DNA of 41,034 bases from an uncultured Eisenbergiella sp. (lineage in GTDB: Bacteria; Bacillota; Clostridia; Lachnospirales; Lachnospiraceae), in the NCBI GenBank assembly GCA_947598825.1, contig CANQFM010000024.1, forward strand, positions 1 to 41,034. The letters run 5' to 3'. A program made the translations under genes and the position numbers. This document shows, piece by piece, positions 5,107 through 26,341 of this stretch. The notes beneath the pieces are model-generated. The model saw nothing but the letters and a program-made list of their open reading frames with translations. It searched no databases and had not been told where the DNA came from. Numbering within the stretch: position 1 is the stretch's first letter; each line of letters begins with the position of its first letter.

Positions 5107-5246
5107 TTGAAATATGGTGCATTCCCGAACAGGCCATATGATTTAAAAGCAGTTTGGGAAAACGAGGAAAAAATACGAAAAATCAGGGGTCAGGCAAAAT
5201 CCTTAGTATAAAAAGTTCTAATAAATGTTTGGAAAAGGAGTTAAAG

Positions 5247-6068
5247 ATGTTTTCAGAAAACAATAATTTGCGCAATATTCAGAAGTGTTCTTTGGAAATA
5301 TTAAAAGTTGTAGCTACAATATGTAAAAAACGGAATACAAGGTATTTCCTTGCGGAAGGAACGCTGCTGGGTGGGGTACGCCATAATGGTTTTATTCCTT
5401 GGGATGATGATGTAGATATTTGTATGCCTCGTGAAGATTTCGAATCTTTTGCAGGTTACATAAATGAAGAACTGCCCCCGCGTTTCAGTGCAAAACACTG
5501 CACGGAAATGTTAGATGTTTGGGGAACGCTTCGCATTACTGATGAAACTCATACACTCATGCGTAATTATAACGGTCATGATATATATTTTAAAACCAGT
5601 ATTGATGTTTTTCCAATCGACGGAATGCCAGAAAACCGGCTTTTGCAACATCTTCATATCCTCCATATTTATTTGAGATATGTTCCTTTACGCCTGTCCC
5701 AGATCGAGAGTTGGGATTTGATGAAGCATCGTCCGTTAGTCATACAATTGATAAGGAAAGGGATACTTTTTCTATCTATTCAAAAGCTGATTGATGAGCG
5801 AAAAGCGTTGTTACAGCTAACAAAAGTATTGACATTATATCCGTATGATAAATCAACAGTTGTGTTTTCTTTTTACTCGGAGTATCGCAAAAAAACAATA
5901 GTACCCAAAATATGTTACGGTATTGGTCGTGATATTATTTTTGAAAACACACATCTGTGTGCGCCTTTTGACAGCGAAAGGATTTTGACGCAGGAATACG
6001 GAAATTATCAGGTGCTGCCACCTGAAAATATGCGGCATTCAAAGCACGGGTTGACTTTTATTAGCTGA
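5247..6068 (+). CDS. LicD family phosphotransferase (intact copy)
   Basis: A 273-residue LicD protein. The hallmark run is present: YFLAEGTLLGG (residues 33-43), then HNGFIPWDDDVDICMPRED (47-64) with the metal-binding aspartates, then SIDVFPIDGMP, and a C-terminal LTQEYGNYQVLPP. I choose the ATG at 5247 because AAAGGAG lies 6 bases upstream; an in-frame TTG at 5154 lacks a good site. Family knowledge: LicD-type enzymes transfer phosphocholine from CDP-choline, or related phospho-groups, onto sugars of teichoic acids and polysaccharides. No choline kinase or uptake gene is visible. A CMP-activated phosphonate from the 15.2-19.5 kb block is therefore a plausible donor (inference). Two decayed paralogues lie directly downstream. 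Confidence 0.88.
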   Translation: MFSENNNLRNIQKCSLEILKVVATICKKRNTRYFLAEGTLLGGVRHNGFIPWDDDVDICMPREDFESFAGYINEELPPRFSAKHCTEMLDVWGTLRITDETHTLMRNYNGHDIYFKTSIDVFPIDGMPENRLLQHLHILHIYLRYVPLRLSQIESWDLMKHRPLVIQLIRKGILFLSIQKLIDERKALLQLTKVLTLYPYDKSTVVFSFYSEYRKKTIVPKICYGIGRDIIFENTHLCAPFDSERILTQEYGNYQVLPPENMRHSKHGLTFIS

Positions 6069-12460: not shown

Positions 12461-12497
12461 TGGAATTCACAGACTGGCTTTGTGGAGGAGTATCATA

Positions 12498-13739
12498 ATG
12501 AATAGAAAAGTCGAAACTAGAGAACTGAACAGCAGCTTGTTTTTGGGCTTGCTCATGTTGCCGTTTTTTCAGCCAGTTGGACTTTTTTATTTTTTTCCGG
12601 CCCTTAATCAGGTATTTAATACATGGGAAATTGTTTCTTTTATAATTGTGGTCGGGTTGTTCTTGATGGAACGAAAAGCTTCCAAAATGTTTTTGGCAAT
12701 TATAGCGTATGAGGCCGTGCTGTTTGTCAGCACGCTAGCTGGTGGCAGCAACAATTACTGGAGGCTGGCGGTGTCATGCGGCGAAGTGGTATCCCTGTGT
12801 ATGCTGATTGAAATAGCAGTGCGGCATAATCCGAAAGTGCTTATCCGATCTATGCTGTGCGTACTTGGTATAGAGTGTATGGTTAATTTGTTTACTGTTA
12901 TCCTTTTCCCGGACGGGATGTATTATGCCAGCGGCTATTCATGGAACAACTGGTTTTTAGGCTATGATAATAAACATCAGTTATTTATCTTTCCGCTTTT
13001 ATGTATTTTTCTGATTTTTACGACGCATAAACAAATGTCGGCAACAGCGGAGTTCGCAGGCATCGTACTGTTTTCTGCGTCGGTGTACATGACATGGTCT
13101 GCTACAGCGGTTGTAGGATTTACGGTTTTTATTTTACTGATTGTATTACTGGAGTTTCGTTTTCAATTGGGGATAGTTGAAGTGAAGAAGGGTTTTATGA
13201 TTAATCTTGCAGCTTTTCTAGCGATCGTGATTTTCAGAGTGCAGAATCTGTTTGAGTTTCTGATAGTTGATATTTTACATAAAGACCTGACGTTTTCGAA
13301 GCGGACGCTTACCTGGGACAGGGCTATCGAATATTTTAAAGATAACATGCTAATAGGGATCGGACAATATTCCCGCGAGGCAAATAAACAAATGATAGGG
13401 CTGGCGCACCCGCATAATTTATATCTTCGCGTTCTTTATGAGACGGGGATTGTTGGAGCGGTGTGTTTTATTGCCATTATATTGATTTTGGCAAAAAAAA
13501 TGAAGGAATATCAGAAAAACAGATATGGTTATATTCTGTCAGTGACGATTTTCTGCTTTTTCCTTATTTTTCAGACGGAAGCACCTGACTATATGACTAC
13601 TTTTTTTGGAATCACAATGCTTGGGTATCATATTGAGGATCTGACTGCTGGGATGGTTCCTGAACACCGGAGGCAGGTCCGATGGCTTTATCCCAATCTG
13701 CGGATTCGAATGCGCAGGCGAAATATGTATGTATCATAA
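12498..13739 (+). CDS. Wzy-type polysaccharide polymerase / O-antigen ligase-like membrane protein
   Basis: A 413-residue protein with about ten membrane segments. A large outward loop before the last segments contains the Wzy_C-type motif HPHNLYLRVLYETGIVG (near residues 295-312). Such proteins join lipid-linked repeat units outside the cell membrane. Its position directly before a flippase supports a Wzx/Wzy-dependent pathway. ATG 12498 is chosen because GGAGG (12484-12488) lies 9 bases upstream; an in-frame TTG at 12480 would overlap that site. AT-rich, like most polymerase genes. The linkage formed cannot be inferred. Confidence 0.82.
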   Translation: MNRKVETRELNSSLFLGLLMLPFFQPVGLFYFFPALNQVFNTWEIVSFIIVVGLFLMERKASKMFLAIIAYEAVLFVSTLAGGSNNYWRLAVSCGEVVSLCMLIEIAVRHNPKVLIRSMLCVLGIECMVNLFTVILFPDGMYYASGYSWNNWFLGYDNKHQLFIFPLLCIFLIFTTHKQMSATAEFAGIVLFSASVYMTWSATAVVGFTVFILLIVLLEFRFQLGIVEVKKGFMINLAAFLAIVIFRVQNLFEFLIVDILHKDLTFSKRTLTWDRAIEYFKDNMLIGIGQYSREANKQMIGLAHPHNLYLRVLYETGIVGAVCFIAIILILAKKMKEYQKNRYGYILSVTIFCFFLIFQTEAPDYMTTFFGITMLGYHIEDLTAGMVPEHRRQVRWLYPNLRIRMRRRNMYVS

Positions 13740-13763
13740 GACAGTAATTATGACGGGGTGAAC

Positions 13764-15215
13764 ATGATGATGAAAGCCGGGAAAGCAGCGGGCCGCTATA
13801 AGTCCTTTTCTCCTGCGGCAAAAGCATCTGCTGTCCTGATGATGACGCAGGTGATCCAGAAAGGGATTCAGATACTTACGAGTCCGGTTCTTACGCGCCT
13901 TTTGACGAATGAAGAATACGGACAGGTAACCGTTTTTCTCTCCTGGTATGAGATCATGTTTATATTTACCGGACTTGGGTTGGCAAAGGGCGTATTCAAC
14001 AATGGTATGCTAGACTTTTGCCAGGATCGCAACAGATTTACGCTTTCGTTGTATCTGCTGTCCCTGACTTCAACGGTACTTATCGGCGGCACAGTCTTGG
14101 GCTTCTGCCGTCTGGTCTGGAATTTTACGGGACTTCCGTTGGGTCTTCTTATATATCTGTTTATTCTTCAGGCTTTTGAAAGTGCGCTGGATATGTGGAG
14201 CATGAGACAAAGATTTGAGTATAAATACAAGGCCCTTGCTGCGGTAACGGTGGCAATTGCAGTATTGTCTCCGGTGTGTGGGATTGCGGCGATATTGAAA
14301 GCCCCACAGAATCCGGCTATAGCTGATATTATTGCTTCACGGGCCGTTTTTCTAATCGTATATTTAATAATTCTGGGAGTTGTTATTGCAAAGGCGAAAG
14401 GAAAAATCAAGCTTTCCTATTGGAAATATGCTTTAAAATTTAATCTTCCGCTGATCCCACATTACCTTTCCCTTCATATTTTAAGCCATATGGACAGAAT
14501 CCAGATAGCCGCGATTGCCGGGGAAGCGAGCGCGGGGATTTACAGTTTGGCATATGGGGGCGCTACTGTGGTAAATCTGTTCTGGAATTCAATTAATGCA
14601 TCCCTCATACCATGGACCTATGAGCAATGCAGGCAGCGGCAGTTTCAGCGTATCAATTACCTGACGCAGCAGTTGATGCTTGGATATGGAATGATTTGTG
14701 TGGTTGTCATGTTCCTTGCGCCTGAAATTATCGCACTCCTTGCGCCCGCATCCTATTATGAGGGGATCTATGTGATTCCGTCAGTTATTATGGGTGTATT
14801 TTTTGTGGCGTTGTATTCTGTATTTGCCAATGTCGTTCACTATTACAAGAAACCCAAATATGTAATGATTGGAAGCTGTTGTTCTGCTTTGTTGAACGTG
14901 GTGTTGAATGCCATTCTTATTCCAGTATTTGGATACATCGCGGCAGGTTATACGACGATGATATCTTACCTGCTGCAGGCGGTAATTGATTATGCCGCGG
15001 TCAGGAAAGTGGAGACAGAAAGGATTTATAATATACGGTTTTTTGTTATGGTTTCCGCGGCAGTCACCACAATAGGGATTGTATTGAACTTTATATATGG
15101 GGACGTACTGATCAGATATGGGCTGTTAGGAATTATGCTTATATTGTTAGCGGTATATATAAAAAAGAACAGAGGTTTGTTTATAAAGCTGTTTAAAAGG
15201 GGGAAAACGGAATGA
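13764..15215 (+). CDS. Wzx-type oligosaccharide flippase (MOP superfamily)
   Basis: A protein of about 483 residues with 12-14 predicted membrane segments and the polysaccharide-transporter N-terminus (VLMMTQVIQKGIQILTSPVLTRLL, then EEYGQVTVF). The central ALKFNLPLIPHYLSLHILSHMDRI is the usual loop before the seventh helix. It should move the lipid-linked repeat unit across the membrane for polymerisation by the preceding Wzy. Three ATGs are in tandem (13764, 13767, 13770) and a GTG lies at 13758. The GACGGGG at about 13752 favours 13764 or 13767. The stop overlaps the start of the phosphonate gene (ATGA at 15212-15215), so flippase and phosphonate production are translationally coupled. Confidence 0.86.
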   Translation: MMMKAGKAAGRYKSFSPAAKASAVLMMTQVIQKGIQILTSPVLTRLLTNEEYGQVTVFLSWYEIMFIFTGLGLAKGVFNNGMLDFCQDRNRFTLSLYLLSLTSTVLIGGTVLGFCRLVWNFTGLPLGLLIYLFILQAFESALDMWSMRQRFEYKYKALAAVTVAIAVLSPVCGIAAILKAPQNPAIADIIASRAVFLIVYLIILGVVIAKAKGKIKLSYWKYALKFNLPLIPHYLSLHILSHMDRIQIAAIAGEASAGIYSLAYGGATVVNLFWNSINASLIPWTYEQCRQRQFQRINYLTQQLMLGYGMICVVVMFLAPEIIALLAPASYYEGIYVIPSVIMGVFFVALYSVFANVVHYYKKPKYVMIGSCCSALLNVVLNAILIPVFGYIAAGYTTMISYLLQAVIDYAAVRKVETERIYNIRFFVMVSAAVTTIGIVLNFIYGDVLIRYGLLGIMLILLAVYIKKNRGLFIKLFKRGKTE

Positions 15216-17221
15216 AAGCCCTGATCCTTAACTCCGGCCTCGGCCACCGCATGGGCGTGCTGACCTCGGAGCATCCGAAATGTATGACAGAGATCTCCCC
15301 CAGGGAGACAATCCTGAGCCGTCAGCTCCATCAGATCGCGGAGGCGGGGATCACCGAGGTGGTCATGACCACCGGGTACTTCGACGAGGTGCTGGAAGAG
15401 TACTGTCAGTCGCTTGAACTGTCTTTACATATCACCTTTGTGAAGAACCCGGAGTATAACTCAACCAACTACATCTATTCCATCTACTGCGCCCGGGAGC
15501 ATCTGCAGGACGACATCCTCCTGATGCACGGGGATCTGGTGTTTGAAAACGCCGTGCTGGACGCCATTCTGGAAAGCGGGGAGAGCTGTATGGCGGTCAG
15601 TTCCATGCTCCCCCTGCCGGAAAAGGACTTCAAGGCCGTCATAAAGGATGGACGGGTCGAAAAGGTTGGCGTGGAGTTTTTTGACAACGCTATGGCTGCG
15701 CAGCCGCTTTATAAGCTGAAACAGGAAGACTGGCGCGTCTGGCTTGACGGAATCTGTGCATTCTGCGAGCGCGGCGAAACAGGCTGTTATGCAGAACATG
15801 CCTTGAATGCGGTGTCAGAACAATGCCACATCAATGCACTGGATGTAAAGGACCGGCTCTGCGCGGAGATCGATACGCCGGAGGATTTAAGGGACGTTTC
15901 CGCCAGACTGCGGGAGATTGAAAACCGCACGGTGTATATGTGCTTCTCCACCGATATCCTGCACAGCGGGCATTTTGCGATCATCAAAAAGGCGTCTCGC
16001 CTGGGGAGGCTGACGGTGGGGGTGCTTTCGGATGAGGCGACGGCCAGCTACCGGCGATTTCCATTGGTCCCTGCTTCGGAGCGCCGGGCCATGTTGGAGA
16101 ACGTGAACGGGGTCAGCCGGGTGGTGGAGCAGAGGACACTAAGCTACCGGGAGAACCTGGAAAGATATAAGCCGGACTACGTCGTCCATGGGGACGACTG
16201 GGCCGCAGGGTTCCAGCGGCCCATCCGGGACGAGGTGGAAGCGGTCTTACATACTTACGGCGGCCAGCTTGTGGAGTATCCCTATGCCAGCGATGCAAAG
16301 TATCGGGCGCTGGAGGAGCGGACAAGGGCGGAGCTGTCCCTGCCGGATATGCGCCGTGCCCGCCTGCGGAGGCTTCTGTCGATGAAAGGGCTGGTGACAG
16401 CCATCGAGGCCCACAGCGGGATCACGGGGCTAATCGCAGAAAAGACTGTGGTCTACCAGGAAGGGCAGGCCCGCCAGTTCGACGCCATGTGGATCAGTTC
16501 CCTGTGCGATTCTACCGCTAAGGGCAAGCCGGATATCGAACTGGTGGATATGACCAGCCGGTTCCGTACTATCGACGACATCATGGAAGTGACGACGAAG
16601 CCCATTATCTTTGATGGCGATACGGGCGGGCTGACGGAGCATTTCGTGTATACGGTGCGGTCCCTGGAGCGCATGGGGGTGTCCATGGTGATCATTGAGG
16701 ACAAGACCGGATTGAAAAAGAACTCGCTGTTCGGGACCCAGGTGCAGCAGACCCAGGACAGCATCGAGAACTTCTGTGCCAAGATCGCGGCGGGCAAACG
16801 GGCGCAGAAGACGAGGGACTTCATGATCTGTGCCAGGATCGAGAGCCTGATCCTGGAGCGGGGCATGGAGGATGCGTTAGAGCGCGCCTTTGCCTTTGTG
16901 GGTGCGGGTGCGGACGCCATCATGATCCACAGCCGGAAAAAGGACCCGGCGGAGATCTTTATGTTTGTGGAGAGGTTCCGGCAGAAGGATCCGGCAACGC
17001 CCCTCGTGGTGGTGCCCACCTCCTTTAACGGGGTGACGGAAGAGGAGTTCAAGGCCCGGGGGGTGAATGTCGTGATCTATGCCAACCAGTTGACCAGGAC
17101 GGGCTTCCCTGCCATGCAGGAGGCGGCAAGGACGATCCTGGAAAACCACAGGGCGAAGGAGTGCGACGAGAAATGCATGAGCATCAAGGAGATCATCACC
17201 CTGATCCCGGAAGAGGAATGA
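15212..17221 (+). CDS. Trifunctional phosphonate protein: LicC/MobA-like nucleotidyltransferase, cytidylyltransferase-like domain, PEP mutase
   Basis: 669 residues in three parts. Residues 1-232: LicC/MobA-like domain with LNSGLGHRM (6-14), PK at 22-23, YNSTNYIYSIY (82-92), metal-binding GD at 107-108 and EIDTPEDL (219-226). Residues 238-365: CTP_transf_like domain with HSGH at 251-254; the usual C-terminal ISTT-type motif is not evident, so it may be inactive. Residues 393-655: PEP mutase with FDGDTGG (467-473) and the diagnostic EDKTGLKKNS (496-505). The mutase converts PEP to phosphonopyruvate; the first domain is suited to making a CMP-phosphonate. Family knowledge: a cytidylyltransferase-like domain plus mutase (about 430 residues) is common in Bacteroides-type loci, and MobA-like domains occur fused to or near PEP mutases. 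GC-rich compared with the overlapping wzx. Confidence 0.9.
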   Translation: MKALILNSGLGHRMGVLTSEHPKCMTEISPRETILSRQLHQIAEAGITEVVMTTGYFDEVLEEYCQSLELSLHITFVKNPEYNSTNYIYSIYCAREHLQDDILLMHGDLVFENAVLDAILESGESCMAVSSMLPLPEKDFKAVIKDGRVEKVGVEFFDNAMAAQPLYKLKQEDWRVWLDGICAFCERGETGCYAEHALNAVSEQCHINALDVKDRLCAEIDTPEDLRDVSARLREIENRTVYMCFSTDILHSGHFAIIKKASRLGRLTVGVLSDEATASYRRFPLVPASERRAMLENVNGVSRVVEQRTLSYRENLERYKPDYVVHGDDWAAGFQRPIRDEVEAVLHTYGGQLVEYPYASDAKYRALEERTRAELSLPDMRRARLRRLLSMKGLVTAIEAHSGITGLIAEKTVVYQEGQARQFDAMWISSLCDSTAKGKPDIELVDMTSRFRTIDDIMEVTTKPIIFDGDTGGLTEHFVYTVRSLERMGVSMVIIEDKTGLKKNSLFGTQVQQTQDSIENFCAKIAAGKRAQKTRDFMICARIESLILERGMEDALERAFAFVGAGADAIMIHSRKKDPAEIFMFVERFRQKDPATPLVVVPTSFNGVTEEEFKARGVNVVIYANQLTRTGFPAMQEAARTILENHRAKECDEKCMSIKEIITLIPEEE

Positions 17222-17224
17222 GGA

Positions 17225-18364
17225 ATGGGGACACAGAAGATCATTGAAGTAAGGGACGGCTATGCCGGATTGGACGCCTGGCTGGAACAGACTGGGACCA
17301 GGCGAATCCTTCTGGTGTGCGACAGCGCCATGCCTTATCTTAAGATCGACCATTATTTTGCAGAACTGGAAAAAGAAGACCGGGTCATCCGTTTCAGAGA
17401 TTTTCAACCAAATCCGGATTATGCCTCGGTGGTAAAGGGAGTGGAACGGTTCCGGGAGGGCGGATGCGACAGCATCATCGCAGTTGGCGGCGGCAGCGCC
17501 ATCGATGTGGCCAAGTGCATCAAGCTGTATGCCAGCCTGGATCCGGCGAAGAACTATCTGGAACAGCCGGTGGCGCCAAACGACATCCCCCTGGCGGCCC
17601 TGCCGACCACGGCGGGGACGGGCAGCGAGGCCACACGTTATGCAGTGATCTATGATAAGGGGGAAAAACAGTCGATCACCCATGAAAGCCTGATCCCGGA
17701 GGCGGTCATCTGGGACCCTTCGGCACTGGACACGCTGCCGGAATACCAGAGAAAGGCCACCATGCTGGACGCCCTGTGCCACGCCGTAGAGTCCTTCTGG
17801 TCCTTGAACAGCACGGAAGAGAGCAGGGGGTATTCCCAGAAAGCGCTGGGGCTGATCCTGCAGAACCGGGAAGGCTACCTGGGAAATACCCGGGAAGGCA
17901 ACGCCGGGATGCTGGAAGCGGCGCACACGGCGGGACAGGCGATCAATCTGACCCAGACCACGGCAGGGCATGCCATGTGCTACAAACTGACCAGCCTGTA
18001 CGGGATTGCCCACGGCCATGCGGCGGCGCTGTGCGTGGCGCAGTTGTGGCCGTATATACTGGCGCATACGGAGAAGTGTATCGATGCCAGGGGGGAAGCC
18101 TATCTGAAAGGGATCTTTGCCGAACTGGGCAGGCTCCTGGGAGGCAGGGACGCACAGGAAGGGGCGGAAAGGTTTCAGAAGCTTTTCTTATCCCTCGGCC
18201 TGCCCGGGATCAGGGCGGGTGAAAAGGATCTCGCTATTTTGAGCGATTCGGTCAATCAGACGCGCCTGAAAAACAATCCAGTGCGGCTGGACAGGAAGGC
18301 CATTGAGGAGATTTACTGCAGAATATTAGGAACGGCCCAGAGGAAAGGCGGAGGAAAAGGATGA
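17225..18364 (+). CDS. Iron-type alcohol dehydrogenase, probable phosphonoacetaldehyde reductase
   Basis: A 379-residue group III Fe-dependent alcohol dehydrogenase. The nucleotide loop GGGSAID is at 88-94, TTAGTGSE at 128-135. The metal ligands fall in LDALCHAVES (D182, H186), TAGHAM (H249) and IAHGHAA (H263 or H265). It lies between the PEP mutase (3 bp gap) and phosphonopyruvate decarboxylase (4-base overlap). This matches the PhpC/DhpG-type reductases that turn phosphonoacetaldehyde into 2-hydroxyethylphosphonate with NAD(P)H. The decarboxylation step is thermodynamically pulled by consumption of the aldehyde, and no aminotransferase is present, so this enzyme is the likely sink. The substrate is inferred from context. 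Confidence 0.85.
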   Translation: MGTQKIIEVRDGYAGLDAWLEQTGTRRILLVCDSAMPYLKIDHYFAELEKEDRVIRFRDFQPNPDYASVVKGVERFREGGCDSIIAVGGGSAIDVAKCIKLYASLDPAKNYLEQPVAPNDIPLAALPTTAGTGSEATRYAVIYDKGEKQSITHESLIPEAVIWDPSALDTLPEYQRKATMLDALCHAVESFWSLNSTEESRGYSQKALGLILQNREGYLGNTREGNAGMLEAAHTAGQAINLTQTTAGHAMCYKLTSLYGIAHGHAAALCVAQLWPYILAHTEKCIDARGEAYLKGIFAELGRLLGGRDAQEGAERFQKLFLSLGLPGIRAGEKDLAILSDSVNQTRLKNNPVRLDRKAIEEIYCRILGTAQRKGGGKG

Positions 18365-19479
18365 ACGTAGAAAACCTATTGAAGCTCATCGGTTCGGATT
18401 TTTACACGGGGGTGCCGGATTCCCAGCTCCGCGCCCTGTGCGACCATCTGATGGACGTTTATGGGACCGACCCGCAACACCATATCATTGCGGCCAACGA
18501 GGGCAACGCGGCGGCGCTGGCGGCAGGGTATCACCTGGCCACGGGCAGGGTGCCCGTGGTGTATATGCAGAACAGCGGCATTGGGAACATCATCAACCCG
18601 ACGGCGTCGCTCTTAAACGGCAAGGTCTATGGGATCCCCTGTCTATTTATCGTGGGCTGGCGGGGGGAGCCGGGGGTACACGACGAGCCCCAGCATATCT
18701 ACCAGGGCGAAGTAACGATGCGGCTGCTGGAAGATATGGATATCCGCACCTTTGTCATCGGAAAAGAAACAGGGGAGGAAGAGCTGCGGGAAGCGATGGA
18801 AAGCTTTCGGCTTCTGTTTAAACAGGGGAAGCAGGCGGCGTTTGTGGTGAAAAAATGGGCCTTACAGTATACAGGCCAGGTAGAGTACCGGAATCATTAT
18901 GAGATGTCCCGTGAGGAGATCATCCGCCATATCACGGCGGTGTCCGGGGGCGATCCGGTGGTTTCCACCACGGGCAAGGCGAGTCGGGAACTGTTTGAGA
19001 TCCGGGAAGGCCGGGGGGAAGGGCATGGAAAGGATTTTTTGACGGTAGGTTCCATGGGCCATGCTTCCTCCATCGCCCTGGGAATCGCTCTGCAGAAGCC
19101 GGAAAAGAAGGTCTGGATCATCGATGGGGATGGCGCGGCGCTGATGCACATGGGGGCGATGGCGGTGATCGGCGCGTGCGCGCCCAGGAACCTGGTGCAT
19201 GTGGTGATCAACAACGGCGCCCATGAGACGGTGGGCGGGATGCCGACAGCGGCAAAGAAAACGGATCTGGTCGGCGTGGCGCGATCCTGCGGGTATCCGT
19301 ATGCGGTATGCGCAGAGGACTACCAGACATTGGACGCAGAACTTCTGGCGGCAAAAGAGCGTGAAGAACTGTGTCTGATCGAAGTAAAGTGCGCCATCGG
19401 GGCGCGGGCGGATCTGGGCAGGCCCACAACGACGGCGCAGGAGAACAAGCGGGCGTTTATGGGATTTTTGCAGGCATGA
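18361..19479 (+). CDS. aepY: Phosphonopyruvate decarboxylase
   Basis: A 372-residue thiamine-diphosphate enzyme. The N-terminal FYTGVPDSQL (14-23) and the glutamate in ANEGNAAALAAGYHLA (E47) belong to the Ppd/AepY family. The conserved MQNSGIGNIINP (69-80) and GWRGEPGVHDEPQH (99-112) distinguish it from pyruvate and sulfopyruvate decarboxylases. The ThDP motif is GDG at 256-258 with NN at 284-285. It removes CO2 from phosphonopyruvate to give phosphonoacetaldehyde, the step that makes PEP mutase flux irreversible. It overlaps the dehydrogenase gene by 4 bases (ATGA) and is the last gene before a strong terminator at 19496. Length is normal for the family. Confidence 0.93.
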   Translation: MNVENLLKLIGSDFYTGVPDSQLRALCDHLMDVYGTDPQHHIIAANEGNAAALAAGYHLATGRVPVVYMQNSGIGNIINPTASLLNGKVYGIPCLFIVGWRGEPGVHDEPQHIYQGEVTMRLLEDMDIRTFVIGKETGEEELREAMESFRLLFKQGKQAAFVVKKWALQYTGQVEYRNHYEMSREEIIRHITAVSGGDPVVSTTGKASRELFEIREGRGEGHGKDFLTVGSMGHASSIALGIALQKPEKKVWIIDGDGAALMHMGAMAVIGACAPRNLVHVVINNGAHETVGGMPTAAKKTDLVGVARSCGYPYAVCAEDYQTLDAELLAAKEREELCLIEVKCAIGARADLGRPTTTAQENKRAFMGFLQA

Positions 19480-19495
19480 GTTTACAGATAACGCA

Positions 19496-19530
19496 GAAGA
19501 GGGCTTTTCAGCCCTCTTCATTTTTCTTGC
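19496..19530 (+). terminator. Rho-independent terminator of the polysaccharide/phosphonate operon
   Basis: A perfect 9-bp stem GAAGAGGGC (19496-19504) pairs with GCCCTCTTC (19511-19519) across a six-base loop, followed by ATTTTTCTT. It lies 16 bp after the decarboxylase stop. The stem contains the last bases of the convergent NYN gene, whose stop codon lies in the loop (19508-19510). Confidence 0.85.
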
Positions 19531-20527
19531 GCCCTTTTCCCTTGCCTTTCACCGCGTCTTTCAGGCTGACGGCGTTTCCTTTGACGGTAACGCCCACCAT
19601 GCTCCGCAGGAAACTGGAAATGCGGCTGTAGCCATAGTCCTTCAGGTCAAAGTCCGGATGTTTCTTTTTCAGCTTGTCGTAGACGACGGAGAGATTGTCG
19701 ATCGTGCCGCCGTTTTTGGCGATCATGCTGGTGATCTCCTGTTGGACGTCGGTTTCGTTGTCCAGTTCCCGCACGATGGCATAGTAGGAGGAGTTTTCCT
19801 TGATAAGCTCTAGCTTGGAGCATTTGTCGCGGATGAAGGTCAAAAGCTTGGTGTAGCCGTAATTGCGGACGTCGAAATCGGTGAACTTCGCGTTCAGGCG
19901 GCTCCCGATCTCTCCCATATAGGTGGTCTTGCCCTTGTTTTCGTTGTCGTTGATAATGGAAATGATCGCCTCCTCGATCTCGGAGATCGGGGTGATGGCG
20001 TTGGCCTTGGCGCTTCTGTCGGTGGTAAAATCATCGTGCAGGTCATGGTCTTCTGAGGCGCCTGCGCCGGAGGAGGCGTTACCGGGCTGATCATAGATCA
20101 GGTTCAGATGGATGAATTTGTTGCAGGCCTTGGTCAGAGAGACGGGGCTTTTGGATTCGCCCATGCCGATGACATACATATTGGCTTCCCGCAGGCGCAT
20201 GGCCAGGCGGGTGAAATCGCTGTCGCTGGTGACCAGGCAGAAGCCGTCCACGTTGCCGGAATAGAGGATGTCCATGGCGTCGATGACCATGGTCATATCG
20301 GTGGAATTTTTGCCGGAAGCGTAATCGAACTGTTGGATCGGGGTAATGGAATTTTCCAGAAGGATGTTCTGGTTCCATCCGTTGTTGCGTGTCCAGTTCC
20401 CGTAGATCCTCCGATAGGAGGCGAAACCGTAGGTTTCGATCTCGTTGAAGATGATCGAAGCGTAGCGGGAACTGACATTTTCCGAATCGATCAGTACGGC
20501 GATCTGCATTTTGTTTTCGTTATTCAT
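19508..20527 (-). CDS. NYN-domain protein with two OST-HTH/LOTUS domains
   Basis: A 339-residue protein. Residues 7-145 form a NYN (PIN-like) ribonuclease domain with VLIDSENVS (D14), STDMTMVIDAMD (76-86, D77 and D83) and SDSDFTRLA (101-109), so the acidic metal site is intact. A charged linker (about 150-180) leads to two LOTUS-type winged helices at about 180-245 and 262-330. Each ends in a similar DFDVRNYGYTKL or DFDLKDYGYSRI segment. Family knowledge: NYN-LOTUS proteins are widespread and presumed RNA-binding or RNA-processing, but the bacterial targets are unknown. The start ATG has AAGGGAG upstream. It ends in a lysine/glycine-rich tail and is convergent with the phosphonate operon. Confidence 0.86.
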   Translation of the reverse strand: MNNENKMQIAVLIDSENVSSRYASIIFNEIETYGFASYRRIYGNWTRNNGWNQNILLENSITPIQQFDYASGKNSTDMTMVIDAMDILYSGNVDGFCLVTSDSDFTRLAMRLREANMYVIGMGESKSPVSLTKACNKFIHLNLIYDQPGNASSGAGASEDHDLHDDFTTDRSAKANAITPISEIEEAIISIINDNENKGKTTYMGEIGSRLNAKFTDFDVRNYGYTKLLTFIRDKCSKLELIKENSSYYAIVRELDNETDVQQEITSMIAKNGGTIDNLSVVYDKLKKKHPDFDLKDYGYSRISSFLRSMVGVTVKGNAVSLKDAVKGKGKGRKKNEEG

Positions 20528-20621: not shown

Positions 20622-22028
20622 TTACAGGTCGAAGCAGAAATAGCGGACCGCGTTGTTGTAGGAAATATCCTGTACGATCTGTCCCAGCGTCTCCATATCG
20701 TCCGGGAATTCGCCGTTCTCCACCAGATCGCCGATGAAACCGCAGAGGATGCGGCGGAAATACTCGTGTCTCGTATAGGACAGAAAGCTCCTGGAGTCCG
20801 TCAGCATTCCGACAAAGCCGGAGAGGTTGCCCAGGTTTGCCAGGCCGGTGAGTTGTTCCAAAATCCCCTGTTTGTGATCGTTGAACCACCATGCGCTGCC
20901 CTGCTGGATCTTCGCCACCGCAGTGGAATCCTGGAAACAGCCCAGAATGGAGCAGATAGCCGCGTTGTCGTTGGGGTTGAGGCTGTAAATAATGGTCTTG
21001 GGCAGCGCCTTTTTGGCGTCCAGCGCGTTTAAGAAGTCCGCCATCTGGTAGGAGGGCGCATGGTTGTTGATGCAGTCATAACCGGTATCGGGGCCAAGCT
21101 TTTCAAACATGGTGGAGTTGTTGTCGCGCTTGGTGCCGTAATGCAACTGCATTACCCAGTTGCGCCGTGCATATTCGCCCGCCACGAAGAGCATGAAAGC
21201 GGTCTTGAACTTGGAAATATCGCTGGCCGTCAGAGGCTTGACGGAGAAACGCTTGGTGAAGATATCCTCGATCTCGTCCTCGCTGGCCGGGTCGTACATC
21301 ACATACTCCAGAGCGTGGTCGGAAACGGTACAGCCCATGGAAGCAAAGAAGTCCATCCGCTTGATCAGCGCTTCCTTCAAAGTGGCAAAAGAGTAGATAT
21401 CCACGCCGCTGACCTCGGAAAGCTGTTCCATATATTCGCGGTAGGTGGGTTTCTCGATGTTCATGGCCTTGTCAGGACGCCAGGCGGGTTTGACCTTTAC
21501 GTCGAAGGTTTTGTCTTCGGCCAGCATCTTATGCCATTCCAGGGAATCCACGGGATCGTCGGTGGTGCAGATCAGCTTCACGTTGGACTGCCTGATCAGG
21601 GAACGGACGCCCATGCCGGGCTCGTTGAGCTTTTTATTGCACAGTTCCCAGACTTCCTCCGCCGTGTTCTTGTTCAGGATGCCCTGATAGCCGAAATAGC
21701 GGCGCAGTTCCAGATGGCTCCAGTGATAGAGCGGATTGCCGATGGCTTTGCCCAGAACCTCGGCCCATTTGAGAAATTTCTCTTTATCCGGCGCATCCCC
21801 CGTGATGTAGTATTCGTCCACGCCGCAGGAACGCATCAGACGCCACTTATAATGATCGCCTCCCAGCCATACCTGCGTGATGTTGTCGAAATGCCGGTCC
21901 TGCGCGATCTCCTGGGGATTGATGTGGCAGTGGTAATCTACGACGGGCATCTGCTGGGCGTACTCATGATAGAGCTTCTGCGCGGTAGGCGTATTTAACA
22001 GAAAATTCTCGTCCATAAAGGGTTTCAT
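20622..22028 (-). CDS. uxaC: Uronate isomerase
   Basis: A 468-residue amidohydrolase-fold isomerase of the usual length. The N-terminal MDENFLLNTPTAQKLYHEYA and VVDYHCHINP (metal-type HCH at 33-35) are characteristic. So are DNITQVWLGGDHYKWRLMR, LICTTDDPVDSLEWH and the C-terminal YTRHEYFRRILCGFIGDLVENGE. It converts D-galacturonate to D-tagaturonate, or D-glucuronate to D-fructuronate, in the cytosol. The divergent uxaB-uxaA genes point to galacturonate as the main substrate. A GAGGAGG-type site precedes the ATG. It lies 67 bp downstream of the LacI regulator on the same strand, so the two probably form one transcript. Confidence 0.96.
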   Translation of the reverse strand: MKPFMDENFLLNTPTAQKLYHEYAQQMPVVDYHCHINPQEIAQDRHFDNITQVWLGGDHYKWRLMRSCGVDEYYITGDAPDKEKFLKWAEVLGKAIGNPLYHWSHLELRRYFGYQGILNKNTAEEVWELCNKKLNEPGMGVRSLIRQSNVKLICTTDDPVDSLEWHKMLAEDKTFDVKVKPAWRPDKAMNIEKPTYREYMEQLSEVSGVDIYSFATLKEALIKRMDFFASMGCTVSDHALEYVMYDPASEDEIEDIFTKRFSVKPLTASDISKFKTAFMLFVAGEYARRNWVMQLHYGTKRDNNSTMFEKLGPDTGYDCINNHAPSYQMADFLNALDAKKALPKTIIYSLNPNDNAAICSILGCFQDSTAVAKIQQGSAWWFNDHKQGILEQLTGLANLGNLSGFVGMLTDSRSFLSYTRHEYFRRILCGFIGDLVENGEFPDDMETLGQIVQDISYNNAVRYFCFDL

Positions 22029-22095
22029 TGGTCGTTTCCTCCTCTTCCTATTTTCCTTTTTTATTTATAGCCGTGCGGGAAAAAGCGCCCGTACG

Positions 22096-23121
22096 CTACA
22101 GCTCGTGGTTAAGTGGTGCGGTCGTGCCCCGGCGGATCAGCCTGCCGGAAAAAATGGTCTTCTGGGGCATCTGGTTCCCGCCAAGCGTCATGATCAGAGT
22201 TTTGACAAGCTGGCGGCAGATGTCTTCCAGACGGTTATCCACGCTCGTCAGTTCCGGTTCGCAGCAGGAGGCGAGAATGGAGTTGTTGTAACCGATGATC
22301 GAAAGCTCCTCCGGGATCTTAAGATCGTTGAGGCGGGCATATTTCACAGCGGCGGTGGCGAGGATGTCCTCGGAAGCGAACACCGCGTGAAAGGAAAGGC
22401 CGGATCGGCGCAGGCCGTCGAGGAAGTGACAGATACCGTCCACGTCTTCATGGCTGCCCGCATAATATTGCTGATATTCCCTGGACAGCGGGAGGTCTTT
22501 CTGCAGGAAAGCGGACTGATAACCGGCCAGCTTGTTCTTCCCGCTGTAGGATCTGGAATTATACAAATAGAGGATATCGGCGATCCCGGCCTCGATGAGG
22601 CTTAAGGTGGCTTCCTGGGCCGCTTTGAAATCGTCGCAAAGCGTGCAGTAGACGTTGGGGTAGTCGAAATCCGCGTTCAGGAGCATCACGGGAACCTGCT
22701 GGGCCGCGTCCCGGATATACTGGTTGTCCGCGTCGTCCTCCTCGATGAAGTTGGAACCTACCATGATCACGCCGTCCACCTTCTGATTCAGCAGAAGACT
22801 CAGGGAGTTTTTCTTGTTCTCCAGTTCATAGCCGGTGCAGCAGAGAAGGGAACGGTAGCCGCCTAAACGCAGGTTCTGTTCAATATGATAAACCGCTTTC
22901 GCCAGGTAGAGATCCGAAGAGTCGGCGCAGAGGATGCCGATGGTGTTCATGGAGTTCAGCCCCAGCCCCCGCGCGAAGGCGTTCGGCGTATAGCCGCAGC
23001 GCTCCATGACGTCCAGCACCTTTTTCCGGGTCTCGGGGCGGACGTTGGCGTTGCCGTTTAAAACGCGGGAAACGGTGGCGATGGAGACGCCGGCCATTTT
23101 CGAAATGTCATATATGGTCAA
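22096..23121 (-). CDS. LacI family regulator of galacturonate genes
   Basis: A 341-residue LacI/GalR repressor. The N-terminal helix-turn-helix TIYDISKMAGVSIATVSRVLNG is followed by the hinge and a periplasmic-binding-like effector domain (for example GVIMVGSNF, LSIIGYNNS). I choose the TTG at 23121 because GGAGG ends 8 bases upstream and the family usually begins MTIYDIA; the in-frame GTG at 23130 touches the ribosome site and is too close. It lies upstream of uxaC on the minus strand and divergent from uxaB. Two matching TGTAAnnnnTTACA palindromes lie in the intergenic region, one at each promoter. It probably represses both arms until a uronate-derived inducer binds (inference). Confidence 0.9.
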   Translation of the reverse strand: MTIYDISKMAGVSIATVSRVLNGNANVRPETRKKVLDVMERCGYTPNAFARGLGLNSMNTIGILCADSSDLYLAKAVYHIEQNLRLGGYRSLLCCTGYELENKKNSLSLLLNQKVDGVIMVGSNFIEEDDADNQYIRDAAQQVPVMLLNADFDYPNVYCTLCDDFKAAQEATLSLIEAGIADILYLYNSRSYSGKNKLAGYQSAFLQKDLPLSREYQQYYAGSHEDVDGICHFLDGLRRSGLSFHAVFASEDILATAAVKYARLNDLKIPEELSIIGYNNSILASCCEPELTSVDNRLEDICRQLVKTLIMTLGGNQMPQKTIFSGRLIRRGTTAPLNHEL

Positions 23122-23189
23122 GTGGCCCACCTCCGGTTACATCCATTTCCCTTTGGCCGTCCCTGATCGTCCTGACTGGCTGAAAATGG

Positions 23190-23217
23190 AATGTAAATGG
23201 TTACAAAAATTATGCAA
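23190..23217 (-). promoter_or_regulatory. Probable promoter of the lacI-uxaC transcript with overlapping operator
   Basis: On the minus strand, TTGCAT (23217-23212) and TACATT (23195-23190) are 16 bp apart. A TGTAAATGGTTACA palindrome (23192-23205) overlaps the -10 box and spacer. Its TGTAA/TTACA half-sites are identical to those at 23324-23337, suggesting autoregulation by the LacI protein. Confidence 0.55.
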
Positions 23218-23288
23218 CTTCATTATACAATAGTAATGAAGCAAATTCAAGCATAAAATCGGAATTGTAAATTCTGGACAAATATATA

Positions 23289-23317
23289 TTGACTATAGGG
23301 AAAAATCGGGGTAGAAT
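23289..23317 (+). promoter_or_regulatory. Promoter of uxaB-uxaA
   Basis: TTGACT (23289-23294) and TAGAAT (23312-23317) are separated by exactly 17 bp, a good sigma-A-type promoter. Predicted transcription start is about 23324, inside the operator. This gives a leader of about 50 bases to the uxaB ATG. Confidence 0.72.
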
Positions 23318-23322
23318 TAGAG

Positions 23323-23338
23323 ATGTAAGGGCTTACAT
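23323..23338. promoter_or_regulatory. LacI-type operator at the uxaB promoter
   Basis: ATGTAAGGGCTTACAT is a 7-2-7 palindrome with perfect arms, typical in size and symmetry of LacI-family operators. It overlaps the predicted +1, where a bound repressor would block initiation. The inner TGTAAnnnnTTACA recurs at 23192-23205. Confidence 0.7.
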
Positions 23339-23374
23339 GGCGTTGCGCCAAATATTCAAAACAGAGAGGGTAAA

Positions 23375-24844
23375 ATGATGGAATTATTGAACAAGGCGAT
23401 GACAGGTAAAAAAGAACGGCCCGTAAAGGTGCTGCAGTTCGGTGAGGGGAATTTCCTCCGCGGTTTTGTTGACTATATGATCGATATTGCCAATGAAAAG
23501 GAGTATTTTGACGGCGATATCGTCCTGGTCAAGCCCATCGAGTTCGGTACGCTGGAGCGCCTGCATAAGCAGGGCTGCCAGTACACGGTTTCCCTGCGGG
23601 GCATCGTGGACGGGGAAGCGACGGTACAAAACCGCATCATCACAAGCGTGACGGACGCAGTGGCGGCGGTAGAGGATTATGAGAAGTACAGCGCCTATGC
23701 GAAGCTGGATACGCTGCGTTTTATCGTTTCCAATACGACTGAGGCCGGCATCGTGTACGATGAGAACGACAGGCTGGAGATGACCCCGCCCCACAGCTAT
23801 CCCGGCAAGCTGGCGAAGTTTTTATATGAGAGATATCAGCATTTCAACGGCGCTTTGGATAAGGGGCTGATCATGCTGCCCGTGGAGCTGATCGACGACA
23901 ACGGCATTCATTTAAAGGAGTGCGTGTTGAAGCAGGCGGACAACTGGGGACTGGAAGAAGGCTTTAAGATCTGGCTGAACGAGGCCTGTGTGTTCACCTC
24001 CACGCTGGTGGACCGGATCATCACCGGCTATCCCAGGGAGGAGGCGCCGAAGCTCTGGGAAGAGTGGGGCTATGAAGACGACAACATCGTGACCGGCGAA
24101 CCCTTCGCCCTGTGGGTCATCGAGAGCGATAAGGATATCAGCAAGGAGCTGCCGCTGCCGGCGGCGGGGCTGCCCGTGATTTTTACCGACGATCAGAAGC
24201 CCTATAAGCAGCGGAAGGTGCGCATCTTGAACGGCGCCCATACCTCCTTCGTGCTGGCCTCCTATCTGGCGGGCAACGATTATGTGCTTCAGTCCATGCA
24301 GGATAAGCTGGTGTTTGATTTCATGTATCACACCATTTATGACGAGGTCATCCCGACCCTGACGCTGCCCAAACAGGACCTGGAGGATTTCGCTCAGGCG
24401 GTGATCACCCGGTTTAACAACCCTTATGTAAAGCACGCCCTTTTGTCCATTTCCTTAAACTCCGTATCCAAGTGGCGCGCCAGGTGTCTGCCCAGCCTTC
24501 TTGGCTATGTGGAGAAGACCGGGGAGTTGCCGGCCCATCTGACTTTCTCCATCGCTGCGCTGATGGCCTTTTATTCCGCGACAGAGCGTGAGGAGAAGGC
24601 GCTGATCGGTAAACGCGGCGATGGCACCTACAAGATCCTGGACGATGAGGCGGTGCTGGGTTTCTTCGCGGAGAACTGTGAAAAGGATACGGCAGAATTT
24701 GTGGACCTGTATCTTTCCAACGAGGCTTTCCACGGTCAGGATCTGACGAAGGTGGCCGGACTGGCAAAGCAGGTGGCCGCATATCTGGACGATATCCGGA
24801 CGCTCGGCATGCGCAAAGCCATGGAAAAGAACTTCGGCGCATAA
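23375..24844 (+). CDS. uxaB: Tagaturonate reductase (altronate oxidoreductase)
   Basis: A 489-residue member of the mannitol-dehydrogenase (polyol) family. The N-terminal VLQFGEGNFLRGFVDYMID is the nucleotide-binding region. FIVSNTTEAGI, MLPVELIDDNG, VDRIITGYPREEA and the catalytic-region KVRILNGAHTSFV are all characteristic of UxaB. It reduces D-tagaturonate to D-altronate with NADH. It is the first gene of the plus-strand operon, with a strong promoter and LacI operator immediately upstream. ATGs occur at 23375 and 23378; GAGAGGG lies 8-10 bases before them. UxaA begins 15 bp after the stop. Confidence 0.94.
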   Translation: MMELLNKAMTGKKERPVKVLQFGEGNFLRGFVDYMIDIANEKEYFDGDIVLVKPIEFGTLERLHKQGCQYTVSLRGIVDGEATVQNRIITSVTDAVAAVEDYEKYSAYAKLDTLRFIVSNTTEAGIVYDENDRLEMTPPHSYPGKLAKFLYERYQHFNGALDKGLIMLPVELIDDNGIHLKECVLKQADNWGLEEGFKIWLNEACVFTSTLVDRIITGYPREEAPKLWEEWGYEDDNIVTGEPFALWVIESDKDISKELPLPAAGLPVIFTDDQKPYKQRKVRILNGAHTSFVLASYLAGNDYVLQSMQDKLVFDFMYHTIYDEVIPTLTLPKQDLEDFAQAVITRFNNPYVKHALLSISLNSVSKWRARCLPSLLGYVEKTGELPAHLTFSIAALMAFYSATEREEKALIGKRGDGTYKILDDEAVLGFFAENCEKDTAEFVDLYLSNEAFHGQDLTKVAGLAKQVAAYLDDIRTLGMRKAMEKNFGA

Positions 24845-24859
24845 GGTTTGGGGGGACAT

Positions 24860-26341
24860 ATGGCGAATATCATCAAGATCCATAAAGACGACAATGTGGC
24901 GGTGGCGATCGAGGAGATCAAAAAGGGCGATACCTTTTATGTGGACGGCCAGCCCATCACTGCGGTCACGGATGTCCCGGCGGGGCATAAGGTGGCGCTG
25001 TCCGATCTGGACGAAAAGACCCCTGTCATCAAATACGGCTGTCCCATCGGCAATACCGTCTGCAAGGTTTCAAAAGGAGAGTGGATCCATACTCACAACG
25101 TAAAGACCGGACTGGGCGATCTGCTGGATTATACCTATGCGCCTGTGGAAACGAAGCTTCCCCACAAGCAAGAGGCTTATTTCATGGGCTATGAGCGGCC
25201 GGACGGCAGCGTGGGCGTGCGCAATGAGATCTGGATCATCCCCACAGTGGGATGCGTCAACAATATCGCCACAGCCATGGCGAAGCAGGCGGCCGGGCTG
25301 GTGAAAGGCTCCGTAGAGGAAGTGGTGGCCTTCCCCCATCCTTACGGCTGCTCTCAGATGGGAGACGATCAGGAGCATACCAGGACGATCCTGGCGGATC
25401 TGATCCATCATCCCAACGCCGGCGGCGTGCTGGTCCTGGGGCTGGGCTGTGAAAACAGCAACATCGACGTGCTGAAAGGCTATATCGGCGAATACGATGA
25501 AAAACGGGTGAAATTCCTGGTTTGCCAGGAGAGCGACGATGAGATGGCCGACGGCCTTGCGTTGATCGGGGAGCTGATCGAGAACGTATGCCGCCTGGAG
25601 CGGACGAAGATCAGCGCCTCCCGGCTGATCGTGGGCTTAAAGTGCGGTGGTAGCGACGGCTTTTCGGGCATTACCGCCAATCCGCTGGTGGGCAGGTTTT
25701 CAGATCTTCTCATTGGCCGGGGCGGCACGACGATCCTGACGGAGGTGCCGGAGATGTTCGGCGCGGAGACCCTTTTGATGAACCGCTGCGAGAACGAGGC
25801 GCTCTTCCATCAGACCGTGGAGTTGATCAACGATTTTAAGAACTACTTTAAACAGCATGGCCAGACCATCTATGAGAATCCGTCGCCCGGCAACAAAAAG
25901 GGCGGGATCTCCACCCTGGAGGACAAATCCTTGGGCTGTACGCAGAAATCCGGTTCCGCGCCGGTGAAGGGCGTGCTGGCCTATGGCGACCGGGTAAAGA
26001 CGGCGGGCCTGAATCTTTTGAGCGCGCCCGGAAACGATCTGGTGGCGGCTACGGCGCTGGCCTCGGCAGGCGCCCATATCGTTCTGTTTACCACGGGACG
26101 GGGAACCCCTTTTGCTTCTCCCGTACCGACGGTCAAGATCGCCAGTAATTCCCGTCTGGCGGGGAAAAAGGCGGGCTGGATCGATTTCAACGCCGGCGTG
26201 CTGACCCAGGGGGCGGATATGGACGAGACGGCGGAGAAGTTTTTCGATTTCGTCCTGGAGGTGGCTTCCGGCAGGAAGGTGCGCAGCGAGGAAGCTGGTT
26301 TCCACGATATGGCGATCTTCAAGCAGGGTGTGACGCTGTAA
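24860..26341 (+). CDS. uxaA: Altronate dehydratase
   Basis: A 493-residue fusion of the SAF-type N-terminal domain (IIKIHKDDNVAVAIEEIKKGD, through VRNEIWIIPTVGCVNN) with the large UxaA catalytic domain (for example FPHPYGCSQMGDD, LGLGCENSNID, LKCGGSDGFSGITANP). Full length for the single-chain form. It dehydrates D-altronate to 2-keto-3-deoxygluconate; the iron-binding type of the family is expected. The ATG at 24860 follows a GGGGGGA site; an in-frame TTG at 24848 would lie before it. KDG kinase and aldolase genes are not in the window, so downstream steps must be encoded elsewhere. Confidence 0.95.
   Translation: MANIIKIHKDDNVAVAIEEIKKGDTFYVDGQPITAVTDVPAGHKVALSDLDEKTPVIKYGCPIGNTVCKVSKGEWIHTHNVKTGLGDLLDYTYAPVETKLPHKQEAYFMGYERPDGSVGVRNEIWIIPTVGCVNNIATAMAKQAAGLVKGSVEEVVAFPHPYGCSQMGDDQEHTRTILADLIHHPNAGGVLVLGLGCENSNIDVLKGYIGEYDEKRVKFLVCQESDDEMADGLALIGELIENVCRLERTKISASRLIVGLKCGGSDGFSGITANPLVGRFSDLLIGRGGTTILTEVPEMFGAETLLMNRCENEALFHQTVELINDFKNYFKQHGQTIYENPSPGNKKGGISTLEDKSLGCTQKSGSAPVKGVLAYGDRVKTAGLNLLSAPGNDLVAATALASAGAHIVLFTTGRGTPFASPVPTVKIASNSRLAGKKAGWIDFNAGVLTQGADMDETAEKFFDFVLEVASGRKVRSEEAGFHDMAIFKQGVTL

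Follow-up and report, generated by a model that had tools for sequence, protein, structure and literature searches.

A three-domain phosphoenolpyruvate mutase predicted to combine carbon-phosphorus bond formation with activation of 2-hydroxyethylphosphonate

Introduction

What is the use of two nucleotidyltransferase-like domains on a single phosphoenolpyruvate (PEP) mutase, and which of them activates the phosphonate? The question is raised by a gene in a 41,034-nucleotide stretch of DNA from an uncultured Eisenbergiella sp. (assembly GCA_947598825.1, contig CANQFM010000024.1, positions 1 to 41,034; hereafter the window). An earlier note, made from the sequence alone, had read the product as LicC/MobA-like, cytidylyltransferase-like and PEP mutase domains in a row. 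The protein is likely to be a bifunctional enzyme, judging from sequence comparison, that would form the carbon-phosphorus (C-P) bond with its C-terminal domain and activate 2-hydroxyethylphosphonate (HEP) with cytidine triphosphate (CTP) at its N-terminal domain, with a third, probably non-catalytic domain between them.

The three-part architecture is already in print. Rice 2019 (PMC6697681; cited here, like the other sources, from extracts) counted 42 triple fusions, 2.8% of the Ppm proteins, and the extracts count them only, with no discussion of domain roles, substrate or signature loss. In the same work about 60% of PEP mutases were reported to carry a fused nucleotidyltransferase, which was read as a sign of activation with cytidine monophosphate (CMP) (PMC6697681). 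Literature searches limited to open-licence papers showed neither a study that characterises a triple fusion nor such an assignment of its domains. What the present analysis adds is the division of labour among the three domains.

The three-domain frame

The frame is real and intact. A Pfam search with the window protein placed PF12804 at residues 3-123, PF00483 at 2-119, PF01467 at 248-344 and PF13714 at 385-643, all above the gathering score, and the NCBIfam PEP mutase model TIGR02320 scored 403.8 bits (cut-off 319.55); the three domains named by the earlier note are thus on one chain, and its GxGxR-type loop, GD pair, HSGH and EDKTGLKKNS lie where it placed them. Rice 2019 defined triple fusions by PF12804, PF01467 and PF13714 above the gathering score, with alignments that cover 60% or more of each model (PMC6697681), and the window protein belongs among them, with profile spans of 1-111 of 160, 7-104 of 133 and 1-240 of 240, respectively. 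The mutase domain is canonical: EDKXXXXXNS is present, and its E, D, K, N and S each occur in all 85 three-domain sequences, where the catalytic residues of the N domain and the mutase are invariant.

Those 85 sequences (80 distinct) include named isolates, and the source genome holds two three-domain copies. In a set of 299 genomes from the same family, TIGR02320 matched in 39 and exceeded its cut-off in 31, at 34 places: 13 of three-domain length, 20 two-domain and one single. Across 398 genomes of the phylum, 16 exceeded the cut-off, at 18 places, of which 3 are of three-domain length (2 from the source genome), 12 are two-domain and 3 are PepM-NTP fusions. A scan seeded with the middle domain retained the best 80 of 192 relatives; these are mostly from Clostridia, with others from Erysipelotrichaceae, Bacteroidales/Prevotellaceae and, by its record title, one Gastranaerophilales metagenome-assembled genome. 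In the named strain Segatella copri DSM 18205 the triple fusion, aepX, lies beside aepY, an annotated phosphonoacetaldehyde reductase gene and a CDP-glycerol glycerophosphotransferase family gene (PF04464).

Separate N-domain genes do exist beside two-domain PEP mutases (PepMs), as in L099, L132, L177 and L178, and an assembly or frameshift join of such neighbours, a danger that the earlier note had raised, could in principle yield the same chain. The recurrence of one order in the sequences above, isolates and the second copy included, makes such a join next to impossible, and it was rejected. Internal repeats between 15000 and 19600 are short and imperfect only.

Two proteins that have the first two domains but lack the mutase were seen. 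L115:4308-6530, from Ruminococcaceae bacterium YAD3003, is a 740-residue fusion of an N-terminal domain of the N* class (defined below) with cytidylyltransferase-like and iron-containing alcohol dehydrogenase domains, with a PEP mutase (437-codon frame) elsewhere in the genome; L111:4308-5438 encodes a 376-residue protein of the first two domains, the N-terminal one again N*, and no PEP mutase match was found in the L111 genome.

The phosphonate that is activated

The N domain has the LicC/PntC fold. The consensus GXG(T/S)RX4-8PK is found in it (GLGHRMGVLTSEHPK) at all positions except T/S. Nucleotidyltransferase genes near pepM that score at least 100 bits to the window N domain, fused or separate, are called N* here, and other nucleotidyltransferase genes near pepM that score at least 22 bits to one of three LicC-like seeds are called 'n'. 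Gene context was counted within 7 kb of pepM, and the label of 2-aminoethylphosphonate (AEP) transaminase was verified on two proteins (NCBIfam TIGR03301 and TIGR02326, both above cut-off).

The two classes keep different company. A phosphonoacetaldehyde reductase is present at 74 of the 83 distinct three-domain loci and at 78 of all 88 N* loci, with neither route at 10 and an AEP transaminase in addition at 2 of the 78. Of the two-domain loci, the five in which N* is encoded by a gene of its own gave a reductase in four and neither in one; the 20 with a separate 'n' gene gave a transaminase in 16, neither in four and a reductase in none; the six in which no N* or 'n' gene was found gave a transaminase in two, a reductase in one and neither in three. 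Among 40 loci outside the scan seeded with the window domain, the unambiguous clusters split 13:0 (reductase to transaminase, N*) versus 0:16 ('n'; Fisher p 1.5e-8, uncorrected for kinship); leaving out the window, and also the S. copri locus because it was found via the window domain, gives 11:0 versus 0:16. Three more loci, from another Bacillota family, have a separate N* alongside a reductase.

In a tree of 58 N domains built by a quick method, the N* clade has a Shimodaira-Hasegawa-like approximate likelihood ratio (SH-aLRT) support of 97 and the AEP-associated 'n' clade one of 99; on this tree the route needs a single change. The branch that separates the two routes has an SH-aLRT of 71, with long-branch warnings; two rows are very long (L177_5914 and L126_10099, both of them further nucleotidyltransferases from these loci), and the 13 of 58 rows that have no single clear route were left uncounted.

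A residue in the pocket points the same way. In the AEP enzyme PntC of Treponema denticola (Tde-PntC), Glu104 and Glu196 are placed by the amine of AEP, and Asp105 and Asp192 are their equivalents in LicC (PMC6697681). With the Tde numbering verified, the Glu104 site corresponds to residue 106 of the window protein. N* domains have a histidine there, whether fused (81 of 81) or separate (8 of 8). The 'n' enzymes of transaminase loci (13 of 13) and the Tde-like enzymes (3 of 3) have Glu, and the separate enzymes that accompany proteobacterial PepM-NTP fusions have Asp (3 of 3). The window N domain thus lacks the Glu104 of AEP-specific PntC, and its His106 fits a substrate free of an amine.

The reductase should yield HEP, and N* is found with the reductase; N* is therefore best read as a CTP:HEP cytidylyltransferase. 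It could be argued that the N domain is an ordinary AEP-specific PntC and that AEP is the product, given that Tde-PntC is its top fold match (and second by sequence profile) and that two of the 83 three-domain loci also contain an AEP transaminase. This is very improbable: the window gene has a reductase and no AEP transaminase within 7 kb, and the amine-contact site is His in 89 of 89 sequences. Both gene content and residue 106 thus favour HEP, and AEP as the product is disfavoured. The difference between His106 and Glu104 may serve as a one-residue sequence marker for hydroxyethyl- versus aminoethylphosphonate surface decoration, a prediction that is testable in S. copri DSM 18205.

The middle domain

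The middle domain matches the cytidylyltransferase (CyTase) domain of Fom1 (5X3D) with an E value of 2.1e-37 and, by Foldseek, a TM score of 0.95; VIA-align hardly covered residues 239-374, such that the fold assignment relies on Foldseek and sequence. The two parts of its pocket have had different fates. Both histidines of HxGH are kept in 85 of 85 three-domain sequences, with Gly changed to Ala in two. Two Ruminococcus proteins have HSAH, and in the S. copri protein, which is outside this set, the motif reads NSAH. The GISST-type signature is present in 0 of 85, the window included, and the two positions that match it hold S or T in 0 of 85 and 1 of 85. In cytidylyltransferases of this fold the corresponding RTEG(I/V)ST(S/T) contacts CTP and probably pyrophosphate (PPi), and the Plasmodium CCT mutants T761A and T762A are "practically inactive," with CTP binding reduced about threefold (PMC6060094).

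Given that the HxGH histidines are kept and the signature is gone, the pocket seems to have been retained for binding while the part needed for turnover was lost. The domain is probably a non-turnover domain that binds a nucleotide or CMP-HEP. The suggestion of the earlier note that it is perhaps structural survives insofar as it is probably not a catalyst, but "structural" is too weak a word, given that the invariant histidines make retained ligand binding likely. For the same reason the idea that the domain drifts freely was rejected. A tree of the middle domain has few columns and leaves many forks unresolved.

Two rivals assign catalysis differently. In the first, HEP is activated by the middle domain, and the N domain serves a different substrate, be it some other phosphonate, phosphocholine or a sugar phosphate. 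Among solved structures the one nearest to the middle domain is indeed that of an HEP enzyme (PMC6697681), its histidines are invariant, and N* also occurs where the fused domain retains GVSI[ST]. This arrangement is nevertheless unlikely: the ISST signature is missing throughout, the NSAH and HSAH proteins all have intact N-domain motifs, and it is N* that follows the HEP route. In the second, both domains catalyse, and the outcome is either two CMP-phosphonates or a single product with two affinities. Conserved key residues in both pockets, and a Bacillota family in which both appear intact, would allow this; the loss of the PPi-side signature from every three-domain sequence and the genes adjacent to the window gene, which predict a single phosphonate, HEP, make it even less probable than the first. 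The N domain as sole cytidylyltransferase remains the preferred assignment.

Fused domains in other PEP mutases

Loss of the catalytic signature extends beyond the triple fusions. It is missing in 30 of 31 two-domain PepMs of the 7-kb context set, and 25 of these 30 loci encode another candidate cytidylyltransferase (4 N*, 20 'n' and 1 stand-alone). The stand-alone case, L134, is a 144-residue Fom1-type protein with GISSS intact that adjoins a signature-less CyTase-PepM (5612-6046, minus strand); the gene on the opposite flank of that PepM resembles radical SAM by eye. The signature-keeping set is small, with seven rows: Fom1, five two-domain proteins and one stand-alone.

The PepM-NTP fusions (L146, L147, L149, L198, L199 and L200) have lost their own motif, with the Arg of GxGxR gone and the first Gly replaced by Ser in 6 of 6 C-terminal nucleotidyltransferase domains. 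Changing the matching residue of Tde-PntC, Arg15, to Ala leaves less than 10% activity (PMC6697681). Three of these fusions, not including L198-L200, were scanned with PF12804; two scored above cut-off and the third slightly under it. Every PepM-NTP locus examined encodes another GxGxR...PK enzyme, which in L169 is fused to a transaminase.

Taken together, the fused domain is without its catalytic signature in 85 of 85 three-domain, 30 of 35 two-domain and 6 of 6 PepM-NTP proteins. A generalization can be offered tentatively, as a possibility rather than an expectation: the nucleotidyltransferase domain in contact with the mutase core may in general be a retired enzyme turned sensor, with the intact cytidylyltransferase mostly elsewhere, and the triple fusions may have re-attached one N-terminally, a new HEP-specific class of PntC marked by His106. 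If the sensor reading is true, the level of CMP-phosphonate or CTP could gate C-P bond formation. Should catalysis in many cases not lie with the fused domain, the published reading of the fusions would shift, and the real activator should be sought beside the fusion.

A search with a Fom1 fragment gave no record reaching 60% identity among the matches listed (40 of 57 plasmid and 38 of 38 phage). Two records of human fecal origin that are titled "Bacteriophage sp." and lack annotation, MT837901.1 and MT836947.1, match at 56% and 40% and are perhaps bacterial DNA.

Predicted pathway and points against it

Iron-containing alcohol dehydrogenases of HEP pathways reduce phosphonoacetaldehyde to HEP. 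In the pathway proposed, the C-terminal domain would convert PEP to phosphonopyruvate, and the products of two adjacent genes, phosphonopyruvate decarboxylase and then an iron-dependent phosphonoacetaldehyde reductase, would lead to HEP. The N-terminal PntC/LicC-type domain would turn HEP and CTP into CMP-HEP and PPi, and a LicD- or TagF-like transferase may move HEP onto a surface glycan. The middle Fom1-type domain, with its HxGH pocket kept and its PPi-side signature gone, most likely holds CTP or CMP-HEP but does not turn it over, acting either as a scaffold or as a sensor that tunes the mutase. The domains, motifs, gene context and recurrence are observed; substrate, catalysis, the role of the middle domain and glycan transfer are inferred from sequence and gene context. 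The earlier note had placed the first and last steps on one polypeptide: C-P bond formation and CMP activation are probably together, on the outer domains, but the glycan genes suggest that a transfer to a glycan comes after activation, which in that case would not be the final step.

Several observations weigh against these assignments. The second amine-contact site is still Glu (Glu195) in 81 of 81 fused N* domains, such that only one contact is altered, and for residue 12 the published consensus calls for T/S, which 60 of the 81 have, but the window protein has His. The window reductase scores 148.4 bits to TIGR03405, far under the cut-off of 423.7, 9 of the 83 three-domain loci have neither reductase nor transaminase in range, two have both, and the 22-bit threshold for 'n' may let in other nucleotidyltransferases. 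For the middle domain, the invariance of the HxGH histidines exceeds the need of a pure scaffold, and, against the wider pattern of retired fused domains, the Fom1 CyTase is active on HEP, as cited in PMC6697681. Another cytidylyltransferase was not found at 5 of the 30 loci with a signature-less two-domain PepM (L124, L125, L128, L171 and L172), three of which are near contig ends. Five two-domain proteins from the Bacillota family of G665 retain GVSI[ST] in the fused domain, and that family has a separate N* in L166, L193, L194 and L195 (the fifth locus stops at a contig end); a kept signature and N* are therefore not simple alternatives, and a replacement story with one or the other was rejected. 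Finally, an assay of any triple-fusion member was not found in the open-licence literature.

Neighbouring genes

The features are collected in Table 1. The mutase gene overlaps the upstream flippase gene by 4 bases and is 3 bases from the downstream alcohol dehydrogenase gene, which in turn overlaps the phosphonopyruvate decarboxylase gene. The S. copri homologue of this dehydrogenase is the annotated phosphonoacetaldehyde reductase beside the triple fusion. The surrounding surface-glycan cluster comprises LicD, Wzy-like, flippase, glycosyltransferase and acyltransferase genes.

Table 1. Positions of the three-domain gene, its parts and its neighbours in the window
Feature	Position	Strand	Remarks
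Three-domain PEP mutase gene	15212..17221	+	one frame, 669 codons
N-terminal nucleotidyltransferase domain (LicC/PntC-like, N* clade), predicted to be a CTP:HEP cytidylyltransferase	15212..15916	+	aa 1-235
His106	15527..15529	+	site of Tde-PntC Glu104 / LicC Asp105 (amine contact)
Middle Fom1-type cytidylyltransferase-like domain	15923..16336	+	aa 238-375; PF01467
HSGH motif, middle domain	15962..15973	+	aa 251-254
YASDAKYRA, site of the GISST signature of Fom1	16283..16309	+	aa 358-366
PEP mutase domain	16343..17221	+	aa 378-669
EDKTGLKKNS, PEP mutase motif	16697..16726	+	aa 496-505
Iron-containing alcohol dehydrogenase, predicted phosphonoacetaldehyde reductase (HEP-forming)	17225..18364	+	PF00465; best NCBIfam match TIGR03405 Phn_Fe-ADH
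Phosphonopyruvate decarboxylase	18361..19479	+	TIGR03297 458.5 bits, cut-off 312.5
LicD-family protein, candidate HEP transferase (donor CMP-HEP, acceptor glycan)	5154..6068	+	PF04991 127.4 bits
Wzy-like polymerase/ligase and flippase genes, directly upstream	12480..15215	+	PF04932, PF01943

The decarboxylase DNA (18353-19469) is 95.8% identical over 1120 bases to that of L004 on contig C7 of the same genome; the mutase-domain DNA of the two clusters is only 78% identical, perhaps reflecting a recent exchange. Between 8317 and 12460 lie a PseF-like CTP_transf_3 gene, an HMGL-like aldolase with an additional C-terminal part and a HAD phosphatase, perhaps a branch for a CMP-activated ulosonic-type sugar. 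A protein with an NYN domain and two OST-HTH/LOTUS stretches is encoded at 19508-20527 (minus strand), and hexuronate catabolism genes follow at 20622-26341: UxaC (minus), a LacI-like regulator (minus, by eye), a mannitol-dehydrogenase family member (UxaB-like) and altronate dehydratase.

Comparison with known systems

The nearest published proteins are the triple-fusion Ppm proteins of Rice 2019, which share the same three Pfam domains and EDKXXXXXNS (PMC6697681). Fom1 of Streptomyces wedmorensis has the same order of CyTase at the N-terminus and PepM at the C-terminus (PMC8976061), but it retains PYTPGISSTRL, which the window protein has lost, and it lacks the additional LicC-like domain in front; of the features of an active Fom1-type CyTase, the window middle domain has HxGH (as HSGH) and not the GISST-type signature. 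Compared with PntC of T. denticola (Tde1415, 6PD1/6PD2) and LicC of Streptococcus pneumoniae (1JYK), the window N domain has His106 in place of Glu104 and Asp105, and whereas Tde1415 is fused to a transaminase, the window N domain is fused to CyTase-like and mutase domains. The two-domain CyTase-like PEP mutases of gut Bacillota, one of which is the contig C7 copy of the source genome, share the signature-less CyTase-like domain and the mutase. They differ in that the activating LicC-like enzyme is on a separate gene and, where that gene is of the 'n' class, in the AEP transaminase that accompanies it at 16 of 20 loci.

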